From assembly GCF_963675165.1 (NCBI RefSeq), contig NC_087392.1:1441001-1505000 (forward strand): a stretch of DNA of 64,000 nt, read 5' to 3'. Below are positions 8,502 to 58,963 of this stretch, in pieces. Every line of letters starts with the position of its first letter. Position 1 is the first letter of the stretch. Origin of the DNA: Halichondria panicea. Its lineage: Eukaryota > Porifera > Demospongiae > Suberitida > Halichondriidae. The notes below the pieces were generated by a model that was not told the DNA's origin, ran no database searches, and saw only the letters and a list, made by a program, of their open reading frames with translations. Made by a program: the position numbers and the translations under genes.

Positions 8502-20299
<11,798 letters not shown>

Positions 20300-24182: not shown

Positions 24183-24757
24183 GGGTCATGACTGTTGAGC
24201 TCTTATCTTGGTGTAGAGGGATTCTAGACAGGCTAGACAAATTAGCTAGAGACAGGCTCCTAGCTATAGGCAACAACAACTAATTATAGACAAATTGACT
24301 TCACAGTGTAGCTTAACCAAATTCTTAGATTGAGAAGCAAACATCAACATACAGGGTAAAACGAAGTTAAAGTGAAGTGAGTCAAAAAAGGTAAACAAAA
24401 CCTTAAATACGTGGAGCAGGGCCCCAGAGGCTCGCACAACAACAAAGGGAGGAAGTGGAGCACTAACAATGAGAATTGTTAGAGAAGAGTATGATATCAA
24501 CATCAACATCAAATCATGGTTAAGGTAGTAGTAAATATTACATAACATAAGGTGTTAATAAGGTTCTAATAAATGTTAATTTAAAGTAAGGTACATTGAG
24601 CGTGAACAATGACTGTACGTATTTAATTAATAATAGATTAATTAATCTGAGAAACTGTACACAAAATAAATGTTGCTATTCCAACACAAAACAATGACAT
24701 TCATAATTAGCAGTCTACAAAAGAGTTCGACTAGCTCGAGTCCAGATGAGTGGCTGA
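24183..24757. other. Gene-free spacer running into AIFM1 3' flank copy
   Basis: I see no gene. From about 24640 the sequence matches the 3' flank of AIFM1 (about 55335-55456) and its copy at 39685-39800. This marks the left edge of the duplicated region. Confidence 0.65.
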
Positions 24758-24779
24758 TCATACTTCAGTCTCTTCGTGT
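24758..24779 (-). pseudogene. AIFM1 C-terminal scrap
   Basis: The last codons of AIFM1 (HEETEV and stop) are recognisable, joined after CTTCGTGT to the flank of the Roc/COR gene. The same junction sequence follows the larger AIFM1 fragment near 40595. Confidence 0.7.
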
Positions 24780-25299
24780 CTCATGATCATGTTGTTGAAC
24801 TGTACAGATCAAAAATAACTTTTTATAATAAACAATTTGGCAATCCACGTAGCTATACAAATAGATATAGCATGAGACCGAGTGTTGTAATGAAATAATT
24901 ATACATTGCATACAACACAAGGAGGTTTTTTTGTTACCTTTATAATTATGCATGGATTTTATATCACAACGACCCCTTACCAAATTATGCCTTGAGGGTA
25001 AGCGATCGTGTAATAAAAAATATTAGGGACTGGACTTTTATTACATGCTTGTAACCTTGACAACGTGAAATATAATATTATACTGAGCACACTATGACAC
25101 AATGGTTGGTTGTGTGGGGGACTACATTAGCAGCTACATGTACGTAGTTGAGTCGCTGCCTTACCTGTGAGGATGACAACATAACAGTCACATGAGACTC
25201 ACTTACATCAAGTATTATAAGTTGGTGCACCAAATATAATGAAATTAGGGATCAGACAGAATAAAATGTATAATGATACAAACATACCGTATCAGGTTC

Positions 25300-28200
25300 T
25301 CATGATAAATTGGTATGAGCAACTGCAGTTGCTGTGCTCACTTCAATTTCATCGGCTACATCGTTACGCTCAACAGCAGGACGCCTTAGGCATTCACATA
25401 TGTAAGGCCATGTGACCGGATGTTCTGGATCAGTAACTTCGAGACGCTTGCCTACCATCTCCATTAGGCGGCATTTATTACAAGGATATTGACCTTCGAT
25501 GTTTTTCAAATCAGTAAGCTTCACCCCGAGAGCCAATCCTAAATTGAACCAATCTTTGCTGGCACTGTTTCAGACTCTCACAAATTTTAAGAATATTCAT
25601 TTCAGTTAGAACGATCGTCTGGTTTGCACTTTCTCCTTTGTTTGGATCCTTTTCTGATGACAATTCTGTACACACATGTAAAGATTATTAATATACTCAG
25701 AGTCAGACTATTATAATTATACACATACATCTATAGATACTAAACCACGAAACTAAGACACTTAAATACTTTGACTATAATATAGTTCATGCATGACAAG
25801 CACACATTGGTTCTGCTGAGTATACTCTGTCTCATTACGCTTTACTGTAATGAATTATACCTTGTATAATGACATCATTCTTCTGACGCTTTAACAGAGT
25901 TTCAACTTCTTCATCTGATGGCAATAATCTTTTGCGCTTGCCTGAGGCTAGAGGATCTGTATGCAGTAGTAGTAATATAGTATTGTGTCGATAGAAGGCA
26001 TTAATGGCAGGTTCACAACAATTATTAAGTTATAGCCAGAGTTGTTACACTACTGAGCTGGTACATATGCTACATTGAGAAACCTATATAAGTATATACA
26101 TGTACAGACATGTATATGGGCCAGTACTATTATATAGGTCTCACCTTCCTCAGAAGTGTCATTTTCCAGAATTGATGGCTGCAATGAAAGTTCGCCTGCT
26201 ACATTCGTAGATGGGAAAAATACTGAGAGCCAATCTTTATGACCTTTTCCTAACATATATGTCATCTTTTTGCATTGAGTACACCTCATGGATTTGCCCT
26301 TTGAAACAACACGAGCTGGGTGGGGAACTTGGTGACTTGGACTTAATTCAGTTGAAGGTGGTTGAGATTCGGGCAATTCATGGGGACACAAAAATGCAAC
26401 TTCAGGATCCTCATACGTGTATTTCAGGGCTTGGTAAGCAGATTGCAAACCTAATCGAATATTTTCATTTATCATCAACAACATTTCTTTTAGATTGCTA
26501 CTGGAATGAATTTCGAGGAACGAAAACCAGTCAATTAGCGTGATAGTACAGTTTTCCTCTCGATGAAGGAATTGTACAAAGTTTCTACTCGGCTGGTGAT
26601 CCTCTATTTCAATTTCCCATTCACATTCTTTAATTAAATACACTTGGAGACAGCAAAACACCCCACAGCACTGCCAGTTGCTTTTAAACTGCAAAACAAG
26701 TGGGATTAATCCGGTCTTAAGCAGATCAGCTCGTTTTTCATTGACTTCCGTTGGTGGGAGCAAGGATAGAAGAGATGGCATATATAAACGCGTATCTTGA
26801 GTGACTTCTTGTGAGAAAAAACGAAATGGGGTGGCTATCAGCAGGTGCTTGAATATTTTAATGAGTTCAGTGGGTGCAAACAGTCTATCGACATAATGCT
26901 TTTCAAAATTCTTATTAGATAAAAGTTCAATTGTAATAATTCCTTTATTAGTAAAATTTAACCAGTCTCCTGACCCATGTATTGGAGTGTTACTTCCTCG
27001 CACATATGCAGCATGCTCGACAAGTTCTGTTACCTTATCGAGAAGAACTTGAGTATCACAAAACACCACATTTGGAAGAATTGCAGGATAATAGTGAAAG
27101 ATGTGATGCTCATGGAAGAATTTTAACGCTTCACAAAGAGCATCTTCGTGAAAATTATGTAATGCTTTTGCAATTTCTACACATTCAGTTTTGCTTAAAA
27201 CTTTTCTATTTTGATCGGTTGAAACCTTTTCGACAGTAATTTCTAAAAGAAACCACCAAAGAGGGAATAGGATTTCATTTTTAAGCTCTTGAGATCGTTC
27301 GTAAATAATTTCACGAATTGTCTTTGCTCTGTCCTTACTGTCAGAGTCGCAGTGCTTGCAATCCACAGGAAATATAATCTCTTTCTTTCCCAAATTGAAA
27401 AAATAAGTAAATTTCTGAATGTTATCTTTCTCTGCTAAGTTCAAAAAAGTTTTATTCTTGTCAGATAATGTTTCCGTGCATTCAGATTGACGGTCTTTGT
27501 GAGTACCAATGCATACCAGCTTGCAGTTTTCACTCTGAGATTGAATTGACTGGACGAGATACTTGAAGTTATCAAGAACTGAGAGATGTGATTTAAAACT
27601 TTTACTAACTGGCTCATTGTCCTTGTAGTATTCAACCAGCGGATGGTCGTCTAGGGATTCAGAGAGACGAAGGATATACAAAGCTATAGAAATCTTTGGC
27701 ATGAAGAGGGGCAGTAGATTATGAAAATGCGGTTGGCCTCCACTATCTATTATGTAGATCCAATGAGATCCAAATTTTTCTTGAATAGTAGTATGATCAT
27801 CGTCAGAAGAGTGCTGAATATTCATCAGTACATCTGAAACAATTTTAAGGAAATCTCTGCTCCCACCATATAAACTTTCTTGTTCATTATCTGATAGTTT
27901 AGTTGGACTAGCTCTTGAAGTCGAAGGAATTTCGTCAACCGGTTCATTGCTAGCTGGTTCATTGCTAGCTGGTTCATTGCTAGCTTCAAGTTGCTTCAGA
28001 GCAATGCTGAGTTCTTGTGGAATAACATATGTTTTAGAGTTAGGATCTGAGCTGGATACATGAGATTTAATAACATCAGCAACTATGCGTTGTAGGTCAT
28101 CACTAGCTATTGGTTTCCATGTTCTAGGGGAATCTTTTTGAGCTTCCATTTTCAGCTTTGTAGTGTCACGAATTTGTCGAATACATACCCTCTCTGCTGT

Positions 28201-28370
28201 GCTGGCTAATGGAGTGCTATTTCGGTCTTCAGGAGGAGGTAGTCCCAGAAGGAGATGCTTAGTGGAAGTTTTACCAGTACCCGCCATTCCAAAGAATAAT
28301 ATATTAGTAGTGTTCACACGGACAAATCCAGCCTTCATGGCTTCATCAAGGGCTTGTTTGGCCTTCAATT
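25300..28370 (-). CDS. Roc/COR-like GTPase with Death domain, copy 1 (Death exon frameshifted)
   Basis: Exons seen: 28370-26145 (2226 bp, open), 25956-25861, 25665-25300. The large exon holds a P-loop GMAGTGKTS, switch motif DSGGQPHF and IGTHKD, fitting a Roc-like GTPase. A COR-like winged-helix region (FHEHHIFHYY, VVFCDTQVLLDKV) and a CxxC pair near its end follow. The last exon encodes a Death domain (DLKNIEGQYP, TWPYICECLRR). Compared with copy 2 it has a net 4-bp gain near 25565-25600, giving a stop at 25511-25513 before most of the Death domain. The old frame ends at 25300. The 5' exon or exons are not found. The main exon begins one base into a codon after an acceptor AG, and the first ATG inside it is MKAGFVRV. 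Death-domain signalling is inferred from the family. Either the Death part is lost or this is a decaying gene. Confidence 0.75.
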
Positions 28371-28535
28371 CTGAATACAATGAGACTCAGTATAATCAAC
28401 TACGTTATATAAGGGACATAGCCAGGGGGATCCAGCACCCCCGTGGCTACGCACATAATAGTTGTACTTATACATGTACCACATGCAACAGTACACCTAT
28501 ACTCATGTACAATGGCCATACAACAATACTATTAT

Positions 28536-28720
28536 AAGTATAGCGGGTAATTTCGAGGGTATATAAATTGGCTATAATTATTTGTGAATTTTGCGTACAA
28601 ATATTCGAGGATAAGCGGACTTGTATATTGAACATGCATTATTGCAGTTTAAATTTTTATGGCTTGGTTGAATCCGCGAAAATATTACCCCTTGAAAATT
28701 ACCCACTATATATACGGTAT
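28536..28720. mobile_element. MITE of the TAGCGGGTAATTT family
   Basis: The left end TATAGCGGGTAATTTCGAGG pairs with the right end AAAATTACCCACTATA. There is no ORF. The unit 2 copy is at about 44434-44622. Confidence 0.65.
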
Positions 28721-29561
28721 ACTAACATATGTATAAATTATATATAGTACACGTATATATACGCTAAAGTATACAGTAACATATATATAGCCTTGTTCCC
28801 CGACCCGACTTTTCTCGAATGCTAGGTCGAAAGAGGACCTGTACTATACGTATTGTATGGGTGATAGTGCACATGCGCTTCAAATTACCCAGAATATGGG
28901 TACCGTATATCTTCTAATTTATCGGACACTTCTAATTACCCCGGACACTCTTTTGGGCAATTTCTAATACAACAGACACTCCAGTGCTTTAATATTACAA
29001 AGTTTGTTCAATATCCGAACAATACCTTGAAAAGTTGAGTTCTAATACAACAGACACTCCTCCAGTGCTTTAATATTACATTTTAATATTACATTTGTTC
29101 TAACCATATACAATACCTTGAAAAGTTGAGTTACATTCATAGACGGCAAGTAAGACTTAGAGTGCTGCAGTTAGATAGCTTTGAGTAGCTAGTTTTAGAT
29201 AGCTAGTGCAACTATTCAGTCGCGCATGCAGCTGCTTGCTTGTTCTAAACATTCCGGACACTTTGCATGCTCTATAAAAATCTGTTCCAATTATATTTCT
29301 GTCTAACTAGGAAGTAAGTATATGGATATTACAAATCGTGTATAATGCAAGGCCTCAAAGATCTACCACTAAATCATACTAGACCTATAAACATTAGGAC
29401 ATCAGATGCCAACCAGATTCAAGTGAGCATTCTGTTTGAGCTAGTAACGCGAACAGTTGACACTATTTCTCCCACACAAACAATACTTCTTGTATACCCT
29501 CGCACGCACGCACGCCGCACACACAGAGTTAGTTTTACCGTATTGACTACGGCTCGAGGCA

Positions 29562-30184
29562 TACAGTAGCAGCCAATATAAAGTATCCGTTCCGTTTACG
29601 TAGTACATCCGTAGTACGCTGGTACGTTGCAAAATAAACGCTAAAAGTACGGTCAAGATACGCTATGTACCGTTGCGTTTTTTTCTAATCAACCGTTGTT
29701 AAATTTTTCCTTCGGCCACACATGCAGCTCTGCATGCAGCTAGCTAGCTAGCTAGAACTTTTGCAGCAGTTAGCTTTTAGATATTATAGCTAGCTAGCTA
29801 GCGTTTTCTAACCTTGTAGAACAGAGATAGAACTCATATAGAGACTATATAGACATCCTTTTTGATGAGAAAGTTGAAGAAGAACCTGTGAATGCATGGT
29901 GCGTTTTATGTCTTTGTTGTAGATCTAGAGCTATAGGCTTACAGCTAGACATAGCCATAGCATAGCTAGGTAACTAGTCTAGCTACGACAGTCGAGATGA
30001 CCAGGATTGTTTCTTTGTTCATTTTCTAAAACTTTTCTGCAAAACGTACTTGCAATGTGCAACGGTAATTAGCAACGGTACGGTAAATTCCAAACGCTTT
30101 TAATACGGTGTCAAAACGGAAACGTTACGAATGTACTACGGACGTACTAAACGGAACGGGTACTTTATATTGACCGCTACAGTA
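29562..30184. mobile_element. ~620-bp element with ~65-bp terminal inverted repeats
   Basis: The left arm CAGTAGCAGCCAATATAAAG and the reverse complement of the right arm (CTGTAGCGGTCAATATAAAG) align for about 65 bp through CCGTTCCGTTTA. The interior has no transposase ORF and carries GCTAGCTAGCTAGC runs. The unit 2 copy is at 45369-45990. It sits about 100 bp from the truncated end of CBP fragment B. Confidence 0.75.
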
Positions 30185-31262
30185 TAAATATAGTAAACTA
30201 GTAACTTTCCGTAATATATTTTATTTCCCTTCCTGTCTATAATCGGCCAGGACCGAGGCTAACATGCACATACATAACACTTTACCTCTGCTCTTGTTTC
30301 TTTTTCTGTCTTCCAGCTCTTTCCTGATGAGGTAGATCTTCTGAGCTATTAGTTTGTAGTACTCCTCTCTGTTCTGAGCTGCCTCAAACATCACCTTCTC
30401 AACCTGAAGGGAGAACATTCCCATAGTTCAACTCTACACTACAGTACATGGAACACACCGTATAAGAGTACAGATACGTGTACACATGCATACTGTACAG
30501 TGTTGTTTTGCTTTCTTAGATCCACTTTACATATGAGACATCAACCGTTATTTTGAATGCGATGTTCTAAATAATACCCACCTTCATGGAATACTGGATA
30601 AGACTCTTGACTCGAGCATCTCTCAAAGCAATGGGATCATGTACAGGGTAGATGGCCTCCACTCTATAGTAGTGAGAGAAAAAGGAATTACTAGGGGTAC
30701 ATTAATGCAATTAAATCACTGAGCGAAGGTTGATCTGGTAAGAATTGATCTCGTGGGAGTTGATCTCGTGAAATTGATCTCGTGTGCACACACCGAATTA
30801 AATACCGAGTGATAAGAATAGCATCACAATAATAATTGATATATGAGTTCAGATCATTGAGTTCAGGTGATTAAATTTTATCTAGAATGAATTTTGGATT
30901 GAGTTCAGGTCATTGAGTTACGTTGTATATACACCAGAAAGAGATTGAAGTGCTAATAATCGTCACATAAAAAGCTAGGTCTACGTGCATTCAATCTGGT
31001 AAAGACGTCTAATGGTTGACACATGAGAAAAATTTAGGTGCGACCGTCCAGTCCAGTTTAGTCACTCCTGGCTGTAGCTGAGGTCTAAGACTGTGAGCCG
31101 ACGTCCCTCAGCATCTGCCAAGATTTCACGCCGAGTATCAAAGTCTACATGTCCACCAGAGTCCAGATAGAGCTACTTTTGCCTCGACGTCAACAACCAC
31201 CATGGAAAATCTCGAATAGGACCTAGACATAACCTCGCTTTGCTCGGAATAAGTATAGGATA

Positions 31263-31395
31263 GACTACACCTAAGAGTAGAATATGCGTCTATGTAACCT
31301 CCGCGGTTGCGGTTAGCCCGAGGCGCAAAGCCGAGGGAATCTAACCGTAACCAAGGTGGTTACTAAAACGCATATTCTATGAGTGGGTGTGGTCT
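31263..31395. mobile_element. Foldback element with ~55-bp arms
   Basis: TAGAATATGCGTCTATGTAACC on the left pairs imperfectly with GGTTACTAAAACGCATATTCTA on the right, and a short GAGGCGCAAAGCCGAGG loop lies between. The unit 2 copy is at about 47069-47200. Confidence 0.75.
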
Positions 31396-31938
31396 ATCTA
31401 ACTTGGACTTCATTGCGCATGCGCGAGGCGTGGTTATAAAAGGCAAGTTGGTGCGTAGCAACAGAAATTGAATTTGTGCGAGCTGGACGAGCTGGAGAGG
31501 TGTGAGAGACACCAGTTGACAGAAAAAGACAAGAAGACGGCTTCAAAACTACAGTAAAACTTAGTAGAGCTTGTGAAACTCTTCTTGAAGATACTGGAAA
31601 GAACAGACAAGTAAAAAGAACCTAGAACTGACTGCAACACTACAAGAAGAAGAAAGAAGCTCTGTGGTGGAGTGGAGGGGGGTATAGAGTAGACTTGACC
31701 GGCATGGAACCTTGAAAAACTCAATAGAAAGTGTCAAACGACTGCTGAAGTGTTTTTGATGCTTCCTGGCCCCCCTTGCCCATGCCCAACTGGAAAAAGC
31801 AATACAAAGCAACAGTGGACATGGAAAGAATGGATATTGACTGAACAAACTATTGCATTCTGTAAAAAAAAGTCATCTTCTTGTCACTTTCACTAAAAAT
31901 TTCATTCCAACTTTTGAGAACTTTCTGCAAATTATTGT

Positions 31939-32026
31939 CACTTCCTGTAGAATATGTGTCCATTTCCTGTAGAATATGAGCCCATTTCCTGTAGAATATG
32001 CGTCCACTTCCTGTAGAATAAGTACC
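31939..32026. repeat. 22-bp minisatellite, four units
   Basis: Units start at 31939, 31961, 31983 and 32005, with core TTCCTGTAGAATATG. A decayed fifth unit follows. The unit 2 copy is at 47744-47831. Confidence 0.9.
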
Positions 32027-32203
32027 TTCTTGTAGATTATGCTTCCATGTAATCTACTGTTTTTAGCCAATCAGATCAATTACAGATGATGTAGTGTAGT
32101 CTAAATACAAAGAAAGTATGAAATTGATCATAATGTAACCCACTTACATTGTGTACATGCATATAATTATGGCTCGGTGCGCATGCGCAAGCGAGGTATA
32201 CGG

Positions 32204-32205
<2 letters not shown>

Positions 32206-32253
<48 letters not shown>
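32206..32253. repeat. (TG)n microsatellite
   Basis: About 24 TG units. The unit 2 copy near 48010-48029 is much shorter, so this tract changes fast. Confidence 0.95.
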
Positions 32254-32254
<1 letters not shown>

Positions 32255-33080
32255 GATTTTAATTTGTGGATTTGCAAAATAATGCTTCGTTCTCGAGTTA
32301 TGCCTATAGTTTTGCTTACTTGGAATGCCATATTGCAGCCTTTTCAGAAGAGCACGTAGCCAAACTTGTTTACCGAGTGTTGCTACTCCACTTAGTAGTT
32401 AGCTCTGCACTAGAACGCTAGCTATTGGTAGCTGCAAGGCTCTGCTGATGGCAGCCATTAATAATAAAGACTTGAACTTTTGGCATCGATCGTTTTTAAC
32501 AACGATCATTCGATCATTACCCACTAATTGAGTTTGCATGCAGCAAATTAATGTTCATCATGTGTATAAAAGCTATATTAGTAGCTTTATGTTATGTAGC
32601 TTTGGCATCTCCACCGAGGTATCAGCACCTGCGGTGCTTTCATAATACATGTACATGTACATTGTGCAGGACAAAACCACTTGGACGTACGTACAACACA
32701 CAACAAACACTTTGGTTGTACAACGTACAGTGTTCTAACGAGGTGCTGCCTGAGGTCAGGACTCACAAGAGAGTGCCACGCTTGAGTAGGATTGCTCGTG
32801 ATCCTGTGCAAATTAGTTACAAATCTTTTGCATGCATGCATGTTCATGTACACTGTCTTTAACACATTATACACATGTACAGTATGCTGTTACACATGCA
32901 TGTACAGCCAGTAAACGCTCTGTAATCCAACTTAGACGACTCAAACATCCATTGAGATGATCGATCGACTCACTGTGGAATGGGAAGAAAGAAGCTTGAT
33001 TGCGGCGGTCCTCCCAGGCCAGGATTTGCTCCAGGATTGTAGCCTGTGTTTCCCTGCCCTGGCCCTGGAAACACAGTGGG

Positions 33081-34197
33081 GGTGCATTAATTATATAGGC
33101 CCAGTTTCCTATCTAATAGTACATTGTAATTGGCTGTCTGTAAATTACACGATGCATACTAATGTACACATATATATTCAGAGGAGGTTGGTCACAATTA
33201 AACAGAGGAATGTGCGTGCACGGAGAAAAGACATACGGAAACGTACAGAGAAGAGCATGAAAAGTAGCTATCCTAGCTAAAGCCAGAAAGCTGCAAACGA
33301 TTGTAGCACTCTATACTAGTAGCAAATGATGCTAACAATACCCAGTAAGTGAGTATATAGCATAGTCACACTCGAAGCAATGAGCCAGAAACTAAGTTAA
33401 CCACAAACTACCAGTTGTTACTGTACTACTTTCCTTGGTTCTTTGACTCCTGTCTTAATGTAGCAGGTATATATAGCAATGATAGGTTTACACTACTACG
33501 ATTCTTAACTAACAGGAGATGTAATACAAGAGAGATAACATAAGACAAATGCTCAGGAATGCAATAATGAGACAAAAGTGCTGACTCAGCGGGTTGAAGA
33601 AGGGTTGAAGGCGAATTCGAGGCCAAACACTGCTTGCATAGCATGTCTCATTAAATCGTGACCAACCTCTCCTCTGATGTATACCGTATAGCGGGTAATT
33701 TTCGTGAGGTAAATATTCGTTATTTTCGTGGGCAAGCTGACCTACACAAAATGTTAACGTAGGCGTGGCTTACCAGAACGTAGGAATGCAGTGCAGGCAA
33801 CGAGACTAAACAAAATTTTTGCTCACGAAAACTACCGTTTCTCGAGTTGAACGAATTTTTTACCCCACGAAACTTACCCACTATACGGTAATCACTCCTG
33901 GTAAAATAATTATACATGTACAGAAAATTGCAGGTTGGTTTTGTCTGGTTAAATTACAGTGTTACACTATTCTCTGTGGTCAATTTTGCCTTGCACATTG
34001 CTATACAGGTACAAGCATGCACAAGCACTGCGGTACACCGTAGGCGTAATTGGGCTAATTACATGTACTAGAGTTCACTGTTTGCTATATAGTAATTGCA
34101 CTGATTTTCAAACTGCACGCACTTACATGAATAAATACTATACATGTACATAATTATATGTAGAATAATCTCTCTGCATGACATTGTATAAACTCAC
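33081..34197. other. Replaced exon 6 region in CBP fragment B
   Basis: This span lies between copies of exons 7 and 5, where exon 6 should be. No match to exon 6 is visible. The DNA is largely unrelated to the intact CBP introns and includes one MITE (33682-33890). Confidence 0.6.
33682..33890. mobile_element. MITE with TACCGTATAGCGGGTAA ends
   Basis: Starts TACCGTATAGCGGGTAATTT and ends CCCACTATACGGTA, with TA at both borders and GTTTTCGTG-rich arms. The unit 2 copy is at 49472-49680. Confidence 0.85.
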
Positions 34198-35157
34198 GTG
34201 TATGTTGTTGCTTGACAGGTAGACACACAGGACAGTCAGCACGCACACAGTTCCTCCAGTGATTGATGATCTGATGAGACGTGGCACAGTGTGTATCTGT
34301 ATATCGATACAAGGGCATAAACACATCAAATACAGTACATACATGTGTATACATTGTATGTGTAGTGTATATGTACTCGTTCTAAGTTTGTGCTTTAATT
34401 TACTGTACGAGCTTGAAAAGCGAACAGTTTGGCAAGCTGCGAGTTCCTAAAATATAATCATGCAATAATCTGTAGCATTGAGAAAACGTCATGTACATGT
34501 ACATGTACGTGCTGTTAGTCCTGATTTACGTGCACTTACAGGTGCAGGATCTTCCTGCCTGACACCCAGCCATGTGATTGAGCACACTCTTCATGGTCTT
34601 GCAGTGAGGGACGGTACAGGGTTGATAGTCATCGCTTGCCTGTTGATCTCTATCGCACTTGTGAGCATGGAGTAGGAGCACCAACTGCTGTTGAATCTGC
34701 TTCACCTTCTCAGAGTCCACAGTCTGGTTAGGGGGAGCCCCCGGTGGTAGCTTGTTTCCGCCGCCTGGGAATAGATTCTGTACGTGGATGGATCCAGGAG
34801 GGGGTGGGGTGGGGACACGGTGGTAGTACATCCCCCCAGTTGCTTGAGAGGTTGTCTGCTGTTGCTGCTGCTGATTCTGAGACAATAGATTATCATCAAC
34901 CTGCAGAAACATTCGGTTTGAAAAAGCAGTTCGTGAAGCTGAGATTCAAACTCAGGACTTACGAATGAATGCACAATGCACACATGTATTTTATATGCAC
35001 AGTACATGTGTGCGACTAAAATTTACACACACAGTACATACTATAATTATGCATGCAGGCGATAATTTTAGTTACATGTAGTGTACGCACACGAACATGT
35101 ACTACATGCACAATCGGAACAGGATGTACACCATAAAAACTTCTTTAAATGCTATTA

Positions 35158-35766: not shown

Positions 35767-36029
35767 ACTCACGGAAGTCATTTCCTGCATGTTGGTGCGT
35801 CCTGGGAGAGAAGGGGTCCCACCAGTTGAGCCTGGTAGGACATTGTTGGGCGTGGTCTGCTGGGAAGTGGGAGGGGCTTGGGATACAGCTCCACCTAGAA
35901 GAGGGCCACTGCTCTGAGGGATGCCTGTACAAACACAAAAAGTAGTACATAAAATTTATCACAATGAGAAAATATACATAATGCCATCCACCTAAAAATG
36001 TTCAGCCAAGAAGACCAGATATACATGTA

Positions 36030-44268: not shown

Positions 44269-44433
44269 CTGAATACAATGAGACACAGTATAATCAACTA
44301 CGTTATATAAGGGACATAGCCAGGGGGATCCAGCACCCCCGTGACTACGCACATAATAGTTGTAGTTATACATGTACCACATGCAACAGTACACCTATAC
44401 TCACGTACAATGGCCATACAACAATACTATTAT

Positions 44434-48440: not shown

Positions 48441-48863
48441 ATGTACATGTACATTGTGCAGGACAAAACCACTTGGACGTATGTACAACACACAACAAAC
48501 ACTTTGGTTGCAAAACGTACATTCTTTTAACAAGGTGCTGCCTGAGGTCAGGGATCACAAGAGAGTGCCACGCTTGAGTAGGATTGCTCGTGATCCTGTG
48601 CAAATTAGTTACAAATCTTTTGCATGCATGTATGTTCATGTACACTGTCTTTAACACATTATACACATGTACAGTATGCTGTTACACATGCATACAGCCA
48701 GTAAACGCTCTGTAATCCAACTTAGACGACTCAAACATCCATTGAGATGATCGATCGACTCACTGTGGAATGGGAAGGAAGAAGCTTGATTGCGGCGGTC
48801 CTCCCAGGCCAGGATTTGCTCCAGGATTGTAGCCTGTGTTTCCCTGCCCTGGCCCTGGAAACA

Positions 48864-49981
48864 CAGTGGGGGTGCATTAATTATATAGGCCCAGTTTCCT
48901 ATCTAATAGTACATTGTAATTGGCTGTCTGTAAATTACACGATGCATACTAATGTACACATATATATTCAGAGGAGGTTGGTCACAATTAAACAGAGGAA
49001 TGTGCGTGCACGGAGAAAAGACATACGGAAACGTACAGAGAAGAGCATGAAAAGTAGCTATCCTAGCTAAAGCCAGAAAGCTGCAAACGATTGTAGCACT
49101 CTATACTAGTAGCAAATGATGCTAACAATACCCAGTAAGTGAGTATATAGCATAGTCACACTCGAAGCAATGAGCCAGAAACTAAGTTAACCACAAACTA
49201 CCAGTTGTTACTGTACTACTTTCCTTGGTTCTTTGACTCCTGCCTTAATGTAGCAGGTATATATAGCAATGATAGGTTTACACTACTACGATTCTTAACT
49301 AACAGGAGATGTAATACAAAAGAGATAACATAAGACAAATGCTCAGGAATGCAATAATGAGACAAAAGTGCTGACTCAGCGGGTTGAAGAAGGGTTGAAG
49401 GCGAATTCGAGGCCAAACACTGCTTGCATAGCATGTCTCATTAAATCGTGACCAACCTCTCCTCTGATGTATACCGTATAGCGGGTAATTTTCGTGAGGT
49501 AAATATTCGTTATTTTCGTGGGCAAGCTGACCTACACAAAATGTTAACGTAGGCGTGGCTTACCAGAACGTAGGAATGCAGTGCAGGCAACGAGACTAAA
49601 CAAAATTTTTGCTCACAAAAACTACCGTTTCTCGAGTTGAACGAATTTTTTACCCCACGAAACTTACCCACTATACGGTAATCACTCCTGGTAAAATAAT
49701 TATACAGAAAATTGCAGGTTGGTTTTGTCTGGTTAAATTACAGTGTTACACTATTCTCCGTGGTCAAATTTGCCTTGCACATTGCTATACAGGTACAAGC
49801 ATGCACAAGCACTGCGGTACACCGTAGGCGTAATTGGGCTAATTACATGTACTAGAGTTCACTGTTTGCTATATAGTAATTGCACTGATTTTCAAACTGC
49901 ACGCACTTACATGAATAAATACTATACATGTACATAATTATATGTAGAATAATCTCTCTGCATGACATTGTATAAACTCAC
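48864..49981. other. Replaced exon 6 region in CBP fragment C
   Basis: Copy of 33081-34197 with very few changes. It lacks CBP exon 6 and contains one MITE (49472-49680). Confidence 0.6.
49472..49680. mobile_element. MITE with TACCGTATAGCGGGTAA ends, unit 2 copy
   Basis: Counterpart of 33682-33890. Same ends and same position. Confidence 0.85.
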
Positions 49982-52899
49982 GTGTATGTTGTTGCTTGAC
50001 AGGTAGACACACAGGACAGTCAGCACGCACACAGTTCCTCCAGTGATTGATGAGCTGACGAGACGTGGCACAGTGTGTATCTGTATATCGATACAAGGGC
50101 ATAAACACATCAAATACAGTACATACATGTGTATACATTGTATGTGTAGTGTATATGTACTCGTTCTAAGTTTGTGCTTTAATTTACTGTACGAGCTTGA
50201 AAAGCGAACAGTTTGGTAAGCTGCGAGTTCCTAAAATATAATCATGCAATAATCTGTAGCATTGAGAAAACGTCATGTACATGTACATGTACGTGCTGTT
50301 AGTCCTGATTTACGTGCACTTACAGGTGCAGGATCTTCCTGCCTGACACTCAGTCATGTGATTGAGCACACTCTTCATGGTATTGCAGTGTAGGAGGGTA
50401 CACGGCCGATAGTCACCGCTCGCCTGTTGATCTCTCTCGCACTTGTCAGCATGGAGTAGGAGCACCAACTGCTGTTGAATCTGCTTCCTCTTCTCAGGGT
50501 CCAAGGTCTGGTTAGGGGGAGCCCCCGGTGGTAGCTTGTTTCCGCCGCCGTGGATGGATCCAGGAGGGGGTGGGGTGGGGACATGGTGGTTAGGCATCCC
50601 CCCAGTTGCTTGAGAGGTTGTCTGCTGTTGCTGCTGTTGCTGCTGCTGCTGATTCTGAGACAATAGATTATCATCAACCTGCAGAAACATTCGGTTTTGA
50701 AAAAACAGTTCATAAAGCTGAAATTCAAACTCAGGACTTACAAACGAATACACACTGCACACACGTATTGTATACGTACAGTACATGTGTGTGACTAAAA
50801 TTTACACACACAGTACATGTACACACGACGTACATACTATAATTATGCAGGCGATAATTGTACTGTACACACACGTACTACATGTAAAATCGGAACAGGC
50901 TGTATATCACGAAAATTTCTTTATAAATGCTATTATAGACTCACAGAAGTCATTCCCTGCATGTTGGTGCGTCCTGGGAGAGAAGGGGTCCCACCAGTTG
51001 AGCCTGGCAGGGCATTGTTGGGCGTGGTCTGCTGAAAAGTGGGGGGGGCTTGGGATACAGCTCCACCTAGAAGAGGGCCACTGCTCTGAGGGATGCCTGT
51101 ACAAACACAAAAAGTAGTATATAAAATTATCACAATGACAATATATAATGCCATCCACCTAAAAATGTTCAGCCAAGAAGACCAGATATACATGTAGCTG
51201 AAAGAGTACTTGCACTAGCTACTGTATACTAAATCTAACAAAAAGAAGTGCGTATTGTACAATACATTATACGTACAGCTTACAAAAGTCAATATAGGCA
51301 ACTCAAAGAAAAATTATAGCAAACACGTTGTCACTCACCTTGATGTGGCTGTTGTTCACTGTTGAAAGAAGAGTCATTCTGAGCTATTGGTACACCCTGG
51401 GAGGTTGCTGGATTGCCAGCGACTGGAACCGGTGGCTGACTCATAGCATTACTCTGCTGCATATGAAACGTCTGCTTGGGAGTTGGAGCGAATCCACGGT
51501 GATTGGTTTGGATCTGATTCTGAGGTGGTCCCACGTTGTACATTGCTCCAGGAGGTCTGCCGTGCATCATTCCACTAGGGTTGGCCATTCTCATCCCAGG
51601 ACTCATTACTTGCTGGCCACCAGGTGACATGTGCACCTGTCTTCTTGTTCTGTGCTGCTGAACGTAGTTGTACTGGGCTTGCATTTGAGGGTGCATGTCC
51701 TGAAGGCTCATCTGTGAAACCATTCTAGGCCATTCTATTTGTCCACCGTCCATTAGCATCCCTGGGTGGTTAACGTAACGTGTCATTGCAGCTCGCATCG
51801 GTCCCATCATTCCTCCGCCTTGTTGTAATTGCATCTGACCAGGCATTCCGGCATATATTCCAGGGTTGTACATCCCAGGATGACCACCTTGGTAGCCTTG
51901 AGGCATCGCCATTCTCGTTCCAGGACTAAGGTACATGGGAGCCCCATCCACCTTTCCAGACATATAAGATAAATTAGTCATCATTGGAGTTCTGATCATC
52001 GGGTCAAAGTTTTGCATCGAGCTCGAGGGTGCCATGGATACAATTCTGTAAGCAGGGGTGGAGCTGACTGACGGTAGGGCAGGTGTGGGGTCAGCTAAAG
52101 TGCTGACCGCTATCGGTTGAGGGCTCGGAGCGTTGCCCGAAGCATTGTAACTGGAATACATCGAGGAATTGACATCTCCACGAGGGCTGTTGGTGTACAT
52201 GTTAATGGTGGCATTCGGAGTAGCGTGGTTCATAGAGGGTGGCTGCGTTTGAGGAGGTGTAGCACTATAAGGGGTGGGTACTTGACTCGCAACAGGTGGT
52301 GTGACACTTGGGGAGACGTTGGACCTTTGATGATTCTGAGTTGGAGTGAGAGTGACAGAGGCGTTCGGAACATTCTGCTGCTGAAGAGATAGAGAAGGGT
52401 TTGCATTTAAGGTCGAATTAACGAGACCACTCGTATCGTTCCCAGCAAGACCGTCCAGAGAGGAGAGATCGGGTAGGTTGTCTAAATCGTTCCGAAACTG
52501 ACTCAGCACTTCTGCAGTGAGAGTAAAATACATTGTTACGTACATGTGTGTGTCAGTGTGGAGGTAATTGCACTACAAAGGGGGATACAGGTAGCTGCCT
52601 GTGAAGGATGAGGATTCTTTGTTTAGTAGAACAGCTTGATTTCTTGAACAACACTGTAGCCAGTTAGCTACTGAGCGTTTATCACGCAGCAAACACAAGC
52701 TATCGTTATTACGAAATGAAACTGGCCGTACCGTTTTAATTTTAATGAGCAGGTCTTCCGTTTCCATTCCGTTTCGACACAAACGTTTTACAGTACGGAA
52801 CGGGAACTTTTATTTGAGGGCTACTGTATACATATCACAATACATAATTATAATACCATCCACAATTTGCAGCCAGAAAAGAGTACTTGTATATTATAG

Positions 52900-53039
52900 T
52901 TAAACAATGGCCTCGAGTGGTACTGGTATATTGATTTACACACGAGAGTAATCTGATAAACCACGAGGCGCAGCCGAGTTGGTTTATCTGATTACTCGAG
53001 CGTGTAAAGCAAATATACCACGAGAGGCCATAGTTTAAC
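52900..53039. mobile_element. Palindromic ~140-bp foldback element
   Basis: GTTAAACAATGGCCTCGAGT at the left pairs with AGAGGCCATAGTTTAAC at the right. The arms run about 60 bp to a small centre (GAGGCGCAGCCGAG). It is not present in fragment B. Confidence 0.8.
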
Positions 53040-53740
53040 TGGCTTGTACTATGTTTAGAACTGTACTACTATGTTTAGCTACTTCCTGTCATGCTTCTTC
53101 AATGAATATGCTTACAACTACTGTTTGCCGTCACTGTTGCTATAGCTATGCAATGAATTTGCTATCATTAATTTTTTAAAAAGCGATGGCTGATTCAAGC
53201 AAGCGTCTATGATTCAAGCAAGCAATTGTGAAGGCTGTGTTTCTGCATCTTTATAGAAGGCTCTTCAAGAAAGTACACTGGTGCTACTTGTCTACAAAGA
53301 GTGCAAATGTACCCGAAAATATCATTCCACAAGCCTACTATACTGCACTGTACTGGCCCAGTGCAGTGCAGTCTCTTTAGTCTGAGGAATTGTGAAGGAA
53401 CCAGATAAACACTTGGCAGTCTGGACCCTTCTTACTGCCATGCAGCAATGTAATAAGCAGGTTGTGACAACCAATGTTGAAAGTTGGAAAAAAAAACACA
53501 AACAAACCAGTATCGTTTACGAGTTCTTCCAAATTTGCCTCCCTTTTTGGAACTATTTATCGCTCGAACTTGGCTCTTTTTATGTTGACTAAAATCATTA
53601 GTAGTCTGTTTTGTATTGAATTCTCTCTAGCTCTAATATTGATTGAATTGAGTAGTGTGTCATTGTTTTAATTGAAACAGTGTGTCAATTTTGTTGCAAA
53701 GGTGGGATACTGTATTCAGTTCTAGCTGTACATGTAGTTT

Positions 53741-53807
53741 GACCACAAGCCATGGTATATGGCAGTTATACACTAGGGTATAACTGCCATATACCATGGC
53801 TGTAGTC
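53741..53807. repeat. Near-perfect hairpin, ~29-bp stem and 8-nt loop
   Basis: The left arm 53741-53770 and right arm 53779-53807 contain a perfect core (AGCCATGGTATATGGCAGTT and its complement) with loop CACTAGGG. The size resembles a small-RNA precursor, but a tiny foldback element is just as likely. Confidence 0.7.
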
Positions 53808-55052
53808 AGACAGGTTGTATAAGTAGTATAAACTACAACTGAAGCCTTTGATCTTTGGTGCAACCATAGTACAAAGCTATATATTGTATGGTAAAACAAA
53901 ATAGTACATAATTATTATTGTATAATACAAATTTAACTTAGCAAAGACATTATACGTACAGCTCTACAAAAGTCAATAAGCAGCTTATAGCAAACACGTT
54001 GTCACTCACCTTGATTTTGCTGTTGTCCACTGTTGAAAGAAGAGTCATTCTGAGCCATTGGTACACCCTGGGAGGTTGCTGGATTGCTAGCGACTGGAAC
54101 TGGAACTGGTGGCTGACTCATAGTATTACTCTGCTGCATATGAGACGTCTGCTCAGGAGTTGGAGTAAATCCACAGTGATTGGCTTGAATCTGATTCTGA
54201 GGCGGTCCCACGTTGTACATTGCTCCAGGAGGTCTGCCGTGCATCATTCCACTAGGGTTGGCCATTCTCATCCCAGGACTCTGGCCACCAGGTGACATGT
54301 GCACCTGTCTTCTCATCCCGGGATGCATTCCAGGGTTCATGTGCACAGGGTTTTGCATTGTTCTGTGCTGCTGAACGTAGTTGTACTGGGCTCGCATTTG
54401 AGGGTGCATGCCCTGAGGGCTCATCTGTGGGACCATTCCAGGCCGTCTTATTTGTTCATCGTCCATCGGCATCCCTGGGTGGTTAATGTGATGTGTCATT
54501 GCAGCTCGCATCGGTCCTATCATTTCTCTGCCTTGCATCTGACCGGGCATTCCGGCATACATTCCAGGGTGGTACATCCCAGGATGACCACCTTGATAGC
54601 CTTGAGGCATCGCCATTCTCGTTTCAGGGCTAGGGTATATGGGAGCCCCACTCATCATTCCAGGCATAAAGGATAAATTAGTCATCATTGGAGTTCTGAC
54701 CATCGGGTCAAAGTTTTGCATCGAGCTCGAGGGTGCCATGGACACAATTCCGTGAGCAGGGGTGGAGCTGACTGACAGTAGGGCAGGTGTGGGGTCAGCT
54801 AAAGTGCTGATCGCTATCGGTTGAGGGCTCGGAGCGCCGCCTGAAGCATTGTAACTGGAATACATTGAGGAATTGACGTCTCCACGAGGGCTGTTGTTGT
54901 ACATGTTAATGGTGGCATTCGAAGTAGTGTTGTTCGTAGAGGGTGGCTGCGTTTTAAGGAAGTGTTTTGAGGAGGTGTAGCACTATAGGGGGTGGATACT
55001 TGACTCGCAACAAGTGGTGGACATTTGGGGAGACATTGGACCTTTGATGATT

Positions 55053-55456
55053 CCGCAGTACACTGTACAGTACTAGTAGCAGACAAGAATTTCAAAAAAT
55101 AAGTACAAAATAGAGCAATTAATTGTCTTGTAGCTTCCACTAGAACTAGCTATTTCTCTCTAACTTGTTCATTTCCCAACAAAATAATGGTAGCCATTTT
55201 CTGTTTTCTTTCTCAGACCGAGTTGTCTCTAAAATAACGCGATCTGGCAAAGCACTAGCTTCGAATCCAGGCCTATATAATTTTGCCAGGCCCAAACTTA
55301 TTATCCCCATAACAATTATTATTAGCAAAAATAATTATTAATCTGAGAAACTGCACACAAAATAAACCGTTGCTCTTCCAACACAAAACAATGACATTCA
55401 TAAGAAGTCTACAAAAGAGTTCGACTAGCTCTAAGTGAATCCAGATGAGTGGCTGA
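55053..55456. other. CBP promoter scrap joined to AIFM1 3' flank
   Basis: About 55120-55205 matches the CBP/AMDHD2 promoter (about 20600-20690), including CATTTTCTGTTTT. The rest is AIFM1 3' flank. AMDHD2 is missing at this junction. Confidence 0.75.
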
Positions 55457-58400
55457 TCACACCTCAGTCTCTTCGTGTATCTTAAACTTGGCTGACAGTG
55501 ACCCAATATCTTCATTAGCCTTCTCTTCAGCTATGATCTGGACAGAACAGAGTACAGTAGTCAACAACAAGTACCAGTGTACAATACAGCTCTACCTGTT
55601 TCGCCAGATTCATCTTTCCAAACAGATTCCATGTGAGGACTCCAACTATTTTGCCGTCTGGTTTGTTGAGATAAAACACTACCCCTTTAGAATAATCATC
55701 CACAGGCAACTCGGATTCCTGAGATAAAGTGATAAAATTGTTAGTATAGTGTGTGTGTGCAGTTTAATAATTGTACAGTTTTAACCGCTTAAACGTAGCA
55801 GATCTCAGTACAGCACAACTATACACCCACCTCACTGGTCTTCCTAGCCCATACGCCCACTGTGGGGAGTTTGCTGTCAACCAGGCCCGTGGCTTCAAAC
55901 CCAACCTCGGGGCCGACATCACTCCTGCACGAGAACCAATAGAGTTCAAACACATCATAATTATCATAAAGCAATTACATTCATGTACAAGCCTGACACC
56001 ACACTGACCTGACCTCATGCACGTCATCAACTCTTGACGTCATGTATATACATGATCACACGTGTATGATAATAGTCATTAATTAGTTTGTTCAGCTATT
56101 AAAATTAACCAGTACAGATTGTCAATAGCCGATAACTTACCAAAACATGGACTGGTGTGTGAATCTGTTGTGCTCCCCTGTCATGTTCTCTCCCGCCAGA
56201 CGACCGCTTACGTTGGCATGGTCGTGATGCTCCACCCTCCTCCGTCCGAGGTAGGGGTCAAAGAAACAGGCCGCATCTCCAGCCTGTAAGGAACAGTATA
56301 TGTACATATAAAACAACGCCATCTAGCATGTATGTGAGGGGCACATTCAGTAGAGTGCATTTCTAGAAGTGGATTGTCTAGGCTTTCAAACGTTAGGCTC
56401 AGTATGATATAGAGCTCTTGAATTGTAGAGGGAGCAGATAGGAAATGACAGAAGTACTCAGTACTGTGTTTAAGCTCACCGCCCAGATATCTGAACAGGC
56501 CTGCAACTCAGAGTTAACTCTGTATCCTCCAAACTGTGGGTCTGTCTCCAATTTAGCCGACTTGGATAGCTCCGTGTTGGGCTGAAGACCCACGGCAACC
56601 ACCACATGATCAGCTGTAAGCTGTGTGTGAGCGCGCGTGTGTGTGTGTGTGGTAAAATAAGTGTAATGCAAATTGTATGTCAATTAGTGTGTTGTTTGAC
56701 ACTGTGCAACATTTTCATGTATATGCACATGCATAGACACTTGTCCTATGTTCAGAGGCTCACTAGATATAATATTCATATACTCACTTCTTCTCCATTG
56801 GACAGAGTGACCTTGACCTTCCCCTCCTCCACACCAGCCTTGGAGATGAGTGTCCCAGGGTGTACAGCCACACCCACCTTGCGAACTTTATCAGTGGTCC
56901 ACTTACAGAGGTCAGACGGTAGAACCAGCCCGAGGTTACCGCCCTCAGGAAACACCTGCGTCACTGACAATCCACGCCCCTTTCCTAGAGAACAAATATT
57001 AGCCATCATAATTATCAGTACTGCCGATACGTAGTAAACAATTCTACGAGCGTCAACCATACACAGACAAAGTTAATACACTCCATTTCTAAGCTGGGGC
57101 CTCCATGTACATGTCCAGCATAATAATAAAGCATAATATTAAACCCACAATGCAATGAATGCTCTATCTAACTCAGTTCAACATAGAGAGAAAGTACTAT
57201 TGAACACACCTCTGCTGGCCATCCCGACTGCGAGCTCACTGCCGAGGAACCCTCCTCCCACCACCAGAATAGACTCCACACTGCTGGCCACTTTGTCCAG
57301 GGATAGGTAATCTGGGATCTGAAAGGATTCAATCAATAATATTGCTACTTGTGACTAACCACAACATACTGTTCTGTATAGAGACACTCTCTCCTTGAGA
57401 TCAGCTGAGGCTTCAGAGAATATCGGGAGGTTCCTTGGCCGGCCACCAGTCGCTAGAAGACATTTGTCGTATGTGATCTCTGATCCATTCTCAAATTGGA
57501 TTGTTTTCGTAGTGGGGTTGAGGCCAACCGCCTGTTGTTAAAAATGTGTCAGTAGAGGACAGTATATAGGCTGTGTTTGAGCTCTTACCTTTGTTCCAGT
57601 GAGGACAGCCACACCTCCATTCTCTTTACCGGGCAGTTCTTTAGGATCACAAAAGTTCCATTTGTACAGTGGGCTATAGAGACGACACAATAATAAGACA
57701 ACCAGAACCCAAATTACGGTCGCTCAATTATGCTAAAAGTACTGTTTGCATAGGCCCTAAAGCGAGAATTTCGACTATTGATAACTTGAGCTCTAGTGAT
57801 GCAATTTTCAATTTTTGCGAAGCCATGAACACTAGCAAAGTTCACAAATGGTAATTTGATGTAATACAGTATGGGCCGACACTTACTCCACAAGCTTGCC
57901 ACCACTCCAAGAGGCCTTGAATTTAAGCTGTTTTGTAGCTTCGTGATCTTCATACAACCAGAGCTGCTTGGAGAGAGGGGGCCTACTGTATGGAGTGTAC
58001 GTCTCCTCTCCTATGATGAGGACCTGTTGTGTAGGATAGACAATATCACATCACTACTGGTTTCCCAACGATACCAAACATCGCCAAATCGTAGTACATG
58101 GTGATCTCTAAGTATGTGATCAGGGTAGTTATACTCAAAGTGGACGCTCTAAGTGATCAGGCAATAAAATTATTGGGTAAAGTGAAGCCTACAAACGTAG
58201 CAGTTAAGTACACACGCAGTAGAACTTTTTTCTCCTGTGGATAGCAAAACGAAAAACATAATAACACATAATAGACCTTTGCTTTAGGATCCTTTTCTCT
58301 GATTGCTTTGGCTGCTGCAAAAGAGGCTGTACCTGCTCCAACCAACACATAAGGTACATGTTCTGTGAGGAGATGATAACACATGAATGCAATATGTTGA

Positions 58401-58963
58401 ATAGCTTGGAACAATGCACACACAACAGGGTGGACAATTGACATACTAGGCAGCTCAAGTGCAGTCACATCAGGAGTCTTGATGAGGACATCACCAACTA
58501 CCTCTGTGGAAATAATAGGAGTAGAAGGGGGCGTGTCTGGTACTGAGGTGGGGGCTATCAACTTCTCTGCTTCAGCTGCAAATAGACCAGTCAATATGAT
58601 TATTAGTGGATATGGATGGGGGGTTAGCTCACCTTCGGGATGGGTGGCTCCAGCTTTACTGTACTCAGACACACGAGTCTGATTCATGCTTTTGATTCCA
58701 GCATTCTTCTGGTTACGATGAGATCGCCACATCTGCAATCGATGAGTGATATTTTAGCACCATGTTGGCTAGCTAGGCATACTCACAGCAAATGTGGTGA
58801 CCCCAGCAATTCCAACTCCTGCAGCTATGATAAGGTTCACGCTATTGCCTCCTCCGGCTCCAGCAGTGGAGGCAGCCCTCCTCCCATTGATGACACCTCC
58901 TCTCACTCCTCTCCCAGAGCGTACAGCCACTTGGAAAGAGCTTCTCCACAGACTTGTAGCCAT
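55457..58963 (-). CDS. AIFM1: Apoptosis-inducing factor 1, mitochondrial (FAD/NADH oxidoreductase)
   Basis: Fourteen exons: 58963-58787, 58732-58633, 58575-58447, 58362-58277, 58023-57887, 57673-57589, 57531-57370, 57318-57210, 56984-56788, 56620-56480, 56283-56141, 55924-55831, 55718-55596, 55537-55457. They sum to 1764 bp, 587 aa (human 613), with all phases consistent. The N-terminus is Arg/Ser-rich (mitochondrial targeting), followed by a hydrophobic segment [17 protein letters not shown] for the inner membrane. FAD-binding [42 protein letters not shown]-binding [41 protein letters not shown] and the AIF C-terminal domain ([20 protein letters not shown]) follow in order. It supports respiratory-chain assembly and, when released, caspase-independent death (family knowledge). 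It lies beside Death-domain genes, but the order may be accidental. Confidence 0.96.

Follow-up and report, generated by a model that had tools for sequence, protein, structure and literature searches.

Proteins of the DAPK1-type ROCO class are arranged as kinase-ankyrin-Roc-COR-Death. In brown algae, ROCO proteins are described as a large repertoire of candidate immune receptors, in which variable exons are shuffled ahead of the GTPase under diversifying selection (PMC11378527). Host-derived domains attached to a signalling receptor are described for the integrated decoys of plant NLRs (PMC4246468) and for mammalian decoys of the NLRP1B/CARD8 type (PMC11781737). In the sponge Amphimedon, lineage-specific Death/TRADD-N expansions with many unique architectures and rapid domain reshuffling are reported in the accessible sections of another study (PMC8195603).

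Here we analysed a 64,000-nt stretch of the sponge Halichondria panicea (NC_087392.1, positions 1,441,001 to 1,505,000), called the window, whose own numbering is used throughout. In contrast to the brown algal ROCO proteins, whose variable part consists of LRR exons (PMC11378527), the part lying ahead of the GTPase is here a piece of a host co-activator. The plant NLR and NLRP1B/CARD8 decoys (PMC4246468, PMC11781737) belong to another receptor class than the putative decoys of the window. The Amphimedon expansions are similar in the lineage-specific growth of death-related proteins and in domain reshuffling, but they concern another domain family, and capture of CBP is not described in the accessible sections of that study (PMC8195603). 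The open-access literature yielded no paper on a KIX domain together with ROCO, and none combining integrated decoy, invertebrate and death domain; on Roc-COR with death domains in sponges it offered one review, of DAPK1.

Results

Self-BLAST of the window revealed two tandem units of about 15.8 kb beside one complete CBP gene, unit A at 24764-40581 and unit B at 40588-56213 (both minus strand), in each of which the 5′ half of CBP is combined with a Roc/COR-like GTPase-Death gene and with 3′ sequence of AIFM1. The segment 24764-29044 was 90.3% identical to 40588-44944 and 29040-35159 was 95.6% identical to 44862-50937; pieces of the CBP 5′ half within 15512-20006 matched both units at 81-94%. 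The CBP-AIFM1 repeats of the original prediction were thus recovered as real duplicated blocks, but not the graded series of three states that it had read into them, units A and B being tandem duplicates of each other.

The complete, parental CBP gene (O) occupies 8505-20299 on the minus strand and, by Pfam, PDB and exon scan, comprises the N-terminus, TAZ1, KIX, bromodomain, ZZ, TAZ2 and a C-terminal tail. Pfam profiles for TAZ (TAZ1 and TAZ2), ZZ and bromodomain were matched, the KIX domain matched PDB 6dmx/1sb0, and an ATG/donor scan placed exon 1 at 20236-20299. No Pfam match was obtained in 10311-11093, which we take to be the HAT stretch. The coding exons of AMDHD2 lie between 21284 and 24017 on the plus strand; its exon 21284-22003 matched N-acetylglucosamine-6-phosphate deacetylase (7nut, E 4.7e-44), and amidohydrolase profiles were matched in 23757-24017. 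Beside it, self-BLAST located an AIFM1 tail, i.e., the last codons (HEETEV-stop) and 3′ flank, at 24629-24782 (minus strand). A full CBP gene with AMDHD2 and a scrap of AIFM1 alongside, as had been claimed, is therefore borne out by the domain matches, the 7nut match and the HEETEV-stop tail.

The full AIFM1 gene was recognised by AIF_C and its last exon at 55327-58996 (minus strand), and an AIFM1 3′ part was found in unit A at 39682-40581 (minus strand) by self-BLAST and the AIF_C profile. AIF_C matched within 55530-55763 of the full gene and within 39874-40134 of unit A; genome-wide there were three matches, all inside the window, at two loci. Pyr_redox stayed below cut-off in two AIFM1 exons, and no Pfam match was found in 58160-58753; the N-terminal exon of the full gene is presumably AIFM1. 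CBP, AMDHD2 and AIFM1 each occur in one complete copy in the window.

In both units, sequence like that upstream of CBP (20588-20687) was found by self-BLAST at 55104-55207 and 39277-39361, 120-320 bp from the AIFM1 3′ flank and with AMDHD2 absent in between, so that the predicted abutment of promoter-proximal CBP sequence on this flank holds for both. The 3′ end of AMDHD2 adjoins that of AIFM1. With this adjacency and these junctions, the proposed ancestral CBP-AMDHD2-AIFM1 block with loss of AMDHD2 in the copy is compatible; a fitting order of events would be duplication of the block, loss of AMDHD2 from the duplicate and, last, tandem duplication of the unit. Each unit has its own junctions, A and B differ by several percent outside a block of 1% divergence, and private gaps (606, 205 and 328 nt among others) separate them.

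All five copies of the CBP N-terminal exon lie in the window (five matches, 8 of 8 candidates scored). Unit A (minus strand) contains an open copy, A1, at 36378-37557, where the acceptor AG of the parent is lost and the next AG lies 3 nt downstream, and a 5′-truncated second copy, A2, at 38185-39142, open over its 3′ part. The other exons of this unit are N2 (35773-35924), TAZ1a (34540-34900), TAZ1c (34198-34296), the linker K0 (32974-33064) and the KIX exons K1 (32729-32803), K2 (30582-30663) and K3 (30286-30403), the last with a phase-1 donor. Unit B (minus strand) has an open N-terminal exon, B1, at 51339-52509 with its acceptor kept, a 5′-truncated B2 at 54010-54982 that is likewise open over its 3′ part, and, within 46094-51096, N2 (50945-51096), TAZ1a (50324-50678), TAZ1c (49982-50080), K0 (48764-48854), K1 (48521-48595), K2 (46388-46469) and K3 (46094-46211). 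The 5′ parts of A2 and B2 are out of frame.

The CBP frame runs unbroken across eight exons, for 719 codons in unit A and 714 in unit B, without a stop. The exon absent from both copies measures 210 nt and has equal end phases, so the reading frame survives its loss. Nearly all splice sites are kept, the exception being the acceptor of the unit A N exon. The TAZ1 and KIX domains of CBP/p300 are present in both units, and the likeness to the N-terminal region of CBP/p300 (KAT3) is close: the alignment of spliced TAZ1 with CBP structures is gapless, the modelled splice junction included, and KIX could be aligned along its length (Pfam E = 2.9e-25 and 2.5e-24 in the two units). Self-BLAST homology to the parent stops just 3′ of KIX3, so, in contrast to CBP/p300, the bromodomain, ZZ, TAZ2 and C-terminal exons are missing; neither unit showed a bromodomain match, nor the HAT or TAZ2 of CBP/p300. 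Exon 1, sought window-wide by protein and DNA, was found in the parent and in neither copy, and no start codon was found for the copies of units A and B. These copies are fragments of CBP, not CBP.

Exon indels were all multiples of three (11/11 for each of O-A, O-B and A-B); in four collinear introns this held for 2 of 13 in O-A and 1 of 11 in O-B, counting events under 60 nt. From the introns, 17.3 (O-A) and 12.3 (O-B) exon indels of 1-2 nt were expected in the more than 2.1 kb of exon per copy; none was observed in either. Many indels of the N exon and polyQ fall in codon repeats, where triplet changes are common even without selection. Among the five N exons, compared from NMYNNSPRG onward only, eight pairs had multiples of three exclusively, and A1-A2 and A1-B2 had 5 of 7 and 6 of 8, the exceptions in each being a 14-nt and a 1-nt gap that sum to 15. 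The dN/dS of the CBP exons was 0.43 (O-A), 0.49 (O-B) and 0.60 (A-B), pairwise values that by themselves do not exclude weak constraint; it was 0.37 for A2-B2 over the 3′ part of the N exon. As the copies kept their reading frame, their domains and almost every splice site after duplication, the comparison shows that both CBP fragments have, by all appearances, been under coding constraint since then. The copies had been regarded as structural remnants, and this is contradicted by their frames and splice sites.

The GTPase exon, with a phase-1 acceptor, lies at 26145-28370 in unit A (acceptor at 28370) and 42031-44268 in unit B (acceptor at 44268), both on the minus strand. A following exon and a Death-like exon are found at 25303-26029 in unit A, the latter with a +1 frameshift relative to B, and at 41147-41899 in unit B (ORFs 41690-41899 and 41147-41548), where the Death-like exon is open; all are on the minus strand. 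Pfam Death scores were 17.0 bits (E 0.0066) for unit B and 12.2 bits (E 0.2) for unit A, below the cut-off of 22.6. The dN/dS of the GTPase exon was 0.67 for A-B (p 0.056).

The module belongs to a large paralog family, for which a first look gave 333 candidates. GMAGTGKTS, DSGGQP and THKD, presumably the Ras-like GTPase motifs G1, G3 and G4, are invariant in 8/8 close members, and the core GTPase residues are invariant in a 10-member alignment including six distant ones. A weak Roc profile was seen in 4 of 8 close and 5 of 6 distant members scanned; none of these, two of the close ones coming from the window, reached the Pfam cut-off of 27 bits (best 16.2). No COR match appeared in the window exons or in the close and distant members. 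A confident Roc/COR identity was sought in Pfam and PDB with single sequences and an 8-member profile, and no confident relative emerged; the six distant members did no better. With Roc below cut-off, COR unmatched and no confident relative of solved structure, we call the exon Roc/COR-like and do not file it as ROCO. It resembles the DAPK1-type proteins in its GTPase motifs, weak Roc profile, Death-like exon and the ankyrin ORFs upstream of some paralogs, but differs in the unreached Roc cut-off, the unmatched COR profile and an N-terminus of TAZ1-KIX.

Some family members have other modules upstream. Among 16 paralog loci, with Pfam applied to picked ORFs only and with L026 and L027 lying mostly, and L028 and L029 partly, outside the survey, upstream ORFs encoded ankyrin in at least four (L035 below cut-off), SH3 in at least two (L029 by Pfam, L030 by similarity) and NACHT in at least one; in seven, no module was recognised by eye among the ORFs listed. 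The start pattern located the beginning of the GTPase exon in 14 of the 16 loci, and a phase-1 AG was present in these 14, along with AGs of other phases.

In units A and B, the KIX3 donor, which does not differ between O, A and B, lies on the same strand as the acceptor of the GTPase exon, and both are in phase 1; such an agreement in phase alone has a chance of 1 in 3. The Roc/COR-Death module does stand beside the CBP copies, as had been noted; "inserted between" them falls short, since the module shares the strand of the KIX exons, is situated 3′ of them and matches them in intron phase. KIX3 and the GTPase exon of unit A are 1.8 kb apart, and two interspersed repeats, one at about 29562-30184 and one at about 29039-29295, make up roughly half of this distance. 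The other half is unexplained sequence and could hide a first exon of the GTPase. In a simple scan for such an exon, by ATG and phase-1 donor, each unit yielded a single weak candidate that spans the edge of a repeat. If the KIX3 donor is read through, the frame of both units stays open for about 20-21 codons and then meets a stop.

Between A and B, the KIX exons differ at 18 of 275 nt (6.5%) and the surrounding noncoding sequence at 56 of 5562 nt (1.0%); among 200,000 random placements the maximum was 12 differences, short of the 18 observed. Each KIX exon is raised (6/75, 6/82, 6/118), and the neighbouring K0 (1/91) and TAZ1c (2/99) are not. The A-B dN/dS of KIX was 0.58, so in the island both kinds of divergence are in excess, and not replacements alone. 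Repeating the test on an SH3-GTPase pair gave no exon excess (20/423 versus 134/2418, p 0.56).

Discussion

The arrangement suggests two chimeric genes, CBP(TAZ1-KIX)::GTPase-Death, rather than decaying duplicates, a reading to which we give about even weight. Pointing to the fusion are the intact frames, the matching phase, the common strand, the repeat-filled half of the gap, the single weak alternative first exon, the raised A-B divergence of the KIX exons and the other modules upstream of some paralogs. Counting against it are the lost N-exon acceptor and Death frameshift of unit A, the failure to find exon 1 in the copies, Roc and Death scores below curated cut-offs, a KIX dN/dS below 1, and the lack of exon excess in the SH3-GTPase pair. 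Segmental duplication would have carried the CBP 5′ half, from the N-terminus through TAZ1 to KIX, together with part of its upstream flank into a unit with the GTPase-Death module on its 3′ side, and tandem duplication of that unit would have followed. Splicing of KIX3 onto the GTPase exon would yield two chimeric proteins; the one from unit B would be complete starting with the N exon, and the one from unit A would carry the frameshift of its Death exon.

A stand-alone truncated CBP, in which read-through of the KIX3 donor gives a TAZ1-KIX protein without HAT that acts as a competitive inhibitor while the GTPase is a separate gene, would account for the open tail in both units, and conservation of the CBP frame needs no fusion; we rate it as rather unlikely, because the KIX3 donor is identical in all three copies and the GTPase exon has an acceptor with but one weak alternative first exon by simple scan. 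Recent non-functional segmental duplicates, with CBP pseudogenes in decay and unrelated GTPase neighbours, appear improbable. The missing exon 1, the lost A1 acceptor, the frameshifted Death exon of unit A and the out-of-frame 5′ parts of A2 and B2 agree with decay, as does a dN/dS near one half, which a free copy compared with a constrained parent would give; yet neither CBP frame holds a stop, the expected 1-2 nt indels are absent, and A2-B2 dN/dS is low over the 3′ part of the exon.

An assembly artefact, with A and B as haplotypes left unmerged or as the product of a misjoin, is highly improbable, given the single full copies of CBP, AMDHD2 and AIFM1, the units' own junctions, their divergence outside the 1% block and their private gaps. 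A further explanation concerns the KIX islands only and is compatible with every other: conversion tracts falling at random among O, A and B, without selection on KIX binding, would produce both the islands and introns of low divergence. The unit B introns N-N2 and N2-TAZ1a are 2.5-3% from O, which makes conversion with the parent likely; the nearest copy switches along the N exon, and KIX dN/dS is below 1. Such tracts are however not expected to follow exon limits, and three separate KIX exons are raised while noncoding sequence, K0 and TAZ1c are not, which makes randomness unlikely. The island may possibly stem from retained older divergence with conversion of its flanks.

In the chimeric proteins, the TAZ1/KIX part would be a captured bait, and its engagement would be passed to the GTPase-Death tail. 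The TAZ1/KIX surface is used by many transcription activators and is often targeted by pathogens, including viruses. The KIX difference between units would follow if the two receptors are kept distinct in their binding; that the bait works in this way, signalling through the tail, is a tentative and somewhat doubtful suggestion. For the integrated-decoy criterion of a host-derived domain in the receptor's transcript, strand, phase and intact frames fit, as far as genomic sequence goes. More doubtful still is a wider reading, in which this animal would have its own version of the integrated-decoy receptors of plants: a promiscuous GTPase-Death tail that might take up the 5′ halves of host genes at a phase-1 intron (CBP TAZ1-KIX, ankyrin repeats, NACHT and, from an adaptor with three SH3 domains, the first SH3s) and use them as baits, those from CBP having diversified at KIX between the tandem genes.

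To our knowledge, partial duplicates of CBP, a hub among co-activators, seldom arise and persist. TAZ1-KIX fragments that are retained would naturally compete with CBP, and, if joined to a GTPase-Death tail, an interaction surface would have been turned into a sensor. With the parent and two copies side by side, the window offers a clean natural experiment, and through the wider GTPase family the idea of integrated decoys could be put to the test in a non-vertebrate animal.

Organization and history of the duplicated region

The window (C16:1441001-1505000 of a 131-Mb assembly in 39 contigs) was confirmed to hold a duplicated structure of CBP, two tandem units and AIFM1. The complete CBP gene (O; 8505-20299, minus strand) is followed by AMDHD2 on the plus strand and by the last codons and 3′ flank of AIFM1 (24629-24782); then come unit A (24764-40581), unit B (40588-56213) and the full AIFM1 gene. 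On the minus strand both units read AIFM1 3′ part, CBP upstream sequence, a second, 5′-truncated CBP N-terminal exon (A2 or B2), the N-terminal exon (A1 or B1), N2, TAZ1, linker, KIX, a gap of 1.8 kb that contains two interspersed repeats, then a GTPase exon, a short exon, a Death-like exon and a piece of the AIFM1 tail, and the right-hand AIFM1 part of unit B runs unbroken into the full gene. The GTPase module is named Roc/COR-like because all scores of the Roc and Death profiles were below cut-off. In genome searches, the five matches of the CBP N-terminal exon and the three of KIX all fell inside the window, and AIF_C matched only the unit A piece and the full AIFM1 gene.

Other features were also seen in the window: a further tandem duplication left of CBP (3563-8229; 6205-6898 against 4222-4901 at 90%, 7435-8229 against 5262-6011 at 80%), where the single ORF tried gave no Pfam match; a long CA/TG microsatellite between CBP coding stretches (10311-10656), visible as repeat ORFs; and one or more Fasciclin-domain genes right of AIFM1 (59179-62080).

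The ancestral order CBP-AMDHD2-AIFM1 of the original prediction fits both the AIFM1 tail adjoining AMDHD2 and the CBP upstream sequence adjoining the AIFM1 3′ flank in both units. AMDHD2 is missing from units A and B. Self-comparison of the window showed that homology of the copies to O stops at 30261, just 3′ of the third KIX exon (KIX3), and the GTPase module sits past this end. Identity of A and B is 98-99.8% through the greater part of the middle and for the most part 84-97% elsewhere, so conversion has probably acted between them; conversion of B with the parent O is suggested as well, because two introns of B differ from O by 2.5-3% and two others by 11-17%.

Evidence for coding constraint on the CBP copies

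There was strong evidence that the CBP fragments are under coding constraint. With exons delimited by the parent's splice sites, the N exon through KIX3 formed a single stop-free frame (A, 719 codons; B, 714; O, 822); the 210-nt CBP exon had no match in either unit, and the frame survives its loss because its two ends have equal phase. Exon indels were multiples of three in 11/11 cases for each of O-A, O-B and A-B, against 2/13 (O-A) and 1/11 (O-B) in four collinear introns (events under 60 nt). Indels of 1-2 nt are the better measure, as triplet indels arise easily in repeats; 0 and 0 were observed in exons, with 17.3 and 12.3 expected from the intron rate. When 128 or 123 substitutions were placed randomly, about 1% of trials stayed stop-free, and about 10% with half as many. 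The 3′ parts of A2 and B2 differed from O by in-frame indels throughout (6/6 each; A2-B2 dN/dS 0.37), and their 5′ parts were out of frame. In both units the modelled junction of TAZ1 was spanned by a gapless alignment to CBP structures. The dN/dS values (O-A 0.43, O-B 0.49, A-B 0.60; GTPase exon A-B 0.67, p 0.056) are by themselves weak evidence for constraint.

A 3-residue insertion in TAZ1 of the parental CBP (17626-18016) is missing from both copies and from the CBP of PDB 5hou, to which unit B aligns gaplessly; the copies may thus preserve an older state at this site.

Noncoding sequence of the 28.4-34.5 kb block differed between A and B at 56/5562 positions (1.0%), and the KIX exons at 6/75 (K1), 6/82 (K2) and 6/118 (K3), with 1/91 in the linker exon K0 and 2/99 in the TAZ1c exon. 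In 200,000 random placements of three segments the count never rose to these 18 differences, and Fisher's test against nearby introns (26/2500) gave p = 5e-8. The majority of changes in K1 and K2 lay on the B side. Counted by codon, A and B differed in K2 by seven replacements and no silent change, but dN/dS was 0.58 for the whole KIX. We read this as KIX exons that retain older divergence with flanks homogenised around them. That the boundaries fall at three exons would be explained most simply by selection for difference, though this is not the sole explanation.

Putative KIX3-GTPase junction

The KIX3 donor (AGAG/GTAAAG) is in phase 1, and so is the GTPase exon of both units, which starts after TTGTATTCAG; such a match has a chance of 1/3. 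Phase 1 is kept in the following exons, the terminal Death-like exon being open in unit B and carrying a one-base insertion in unit A. A phase-1 AG also stood at the exon start in 14 of the 16 fetched paralog loci, those where this start was found, along with AGs in other phases. About half of the intervening gap consists of a repeat of ~620 bp (29562-30184; inverted ends of ~55 bp, many copies genome-wide) and one of ~260 bp (29039-29295; many further copies), and a simple scan for an alternative first exon there gave one weak candidate, across the edge of the first repeat. CBP exon 1 was sought in units A and B and found in neither; in the N exon of unit A the acceptor AG of the parent is gone, and another AG stands in frame three bases downstream. 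Judged from these sequence features, splicing of KIX3 onto the GTPase exon, which would give chimeric CBP(TAZ1-KIX)::GTPase-Death proteins, appears slightly more likely than its rivals.

GTPase paralogs and their upstream modules

The GTPase exon had at least 59 genome matches including the window's two, a lower bound as 58 of 333 first-look candidates were scored; among the matches listed, 23 besides those two were 75-79% identical, mostly on C1. Among the upstream stretches fetched for 16 paralog loci, close paralogs had same-strand ORFs with ankyrin at L028, L035 (below cut-off), L038 and L040 and with SH3 at L029 and L030; at L033, NACHT lay within the GTPase ORF itself. No module was recognised in seven of the 16 stretches, and two others were covered only in small part. 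Kinase and Death-like ORFs were also present upstream at L040.

The SH3 piece occurs at eight genome places (≥82% identity). One, L057 (C16:2654500-2663000), carries three SH3 domains without a GTPase match within 8.5 kb; it is apparently the parent adaptor. At L058-L060 the piece lies ahead of a GTPase relative that is distant (22-24% identity); at L061 the stretch fetched contained no such relative. The SH3 adaptor-like gene may be a second host gene with its 5′ half captured. Repeated on the SH3 pair L029/L030, the exon-excess test was negative, a result that argues against diversified baits as a general rule.

The open-access literature searched held nothing on 'KIX domain' together with 'ROCO'. 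Speculatively, the putative CBP-GTPase fusions might serve as decoys, with the captured host domain as bait on a receptor, a role that could be tested.
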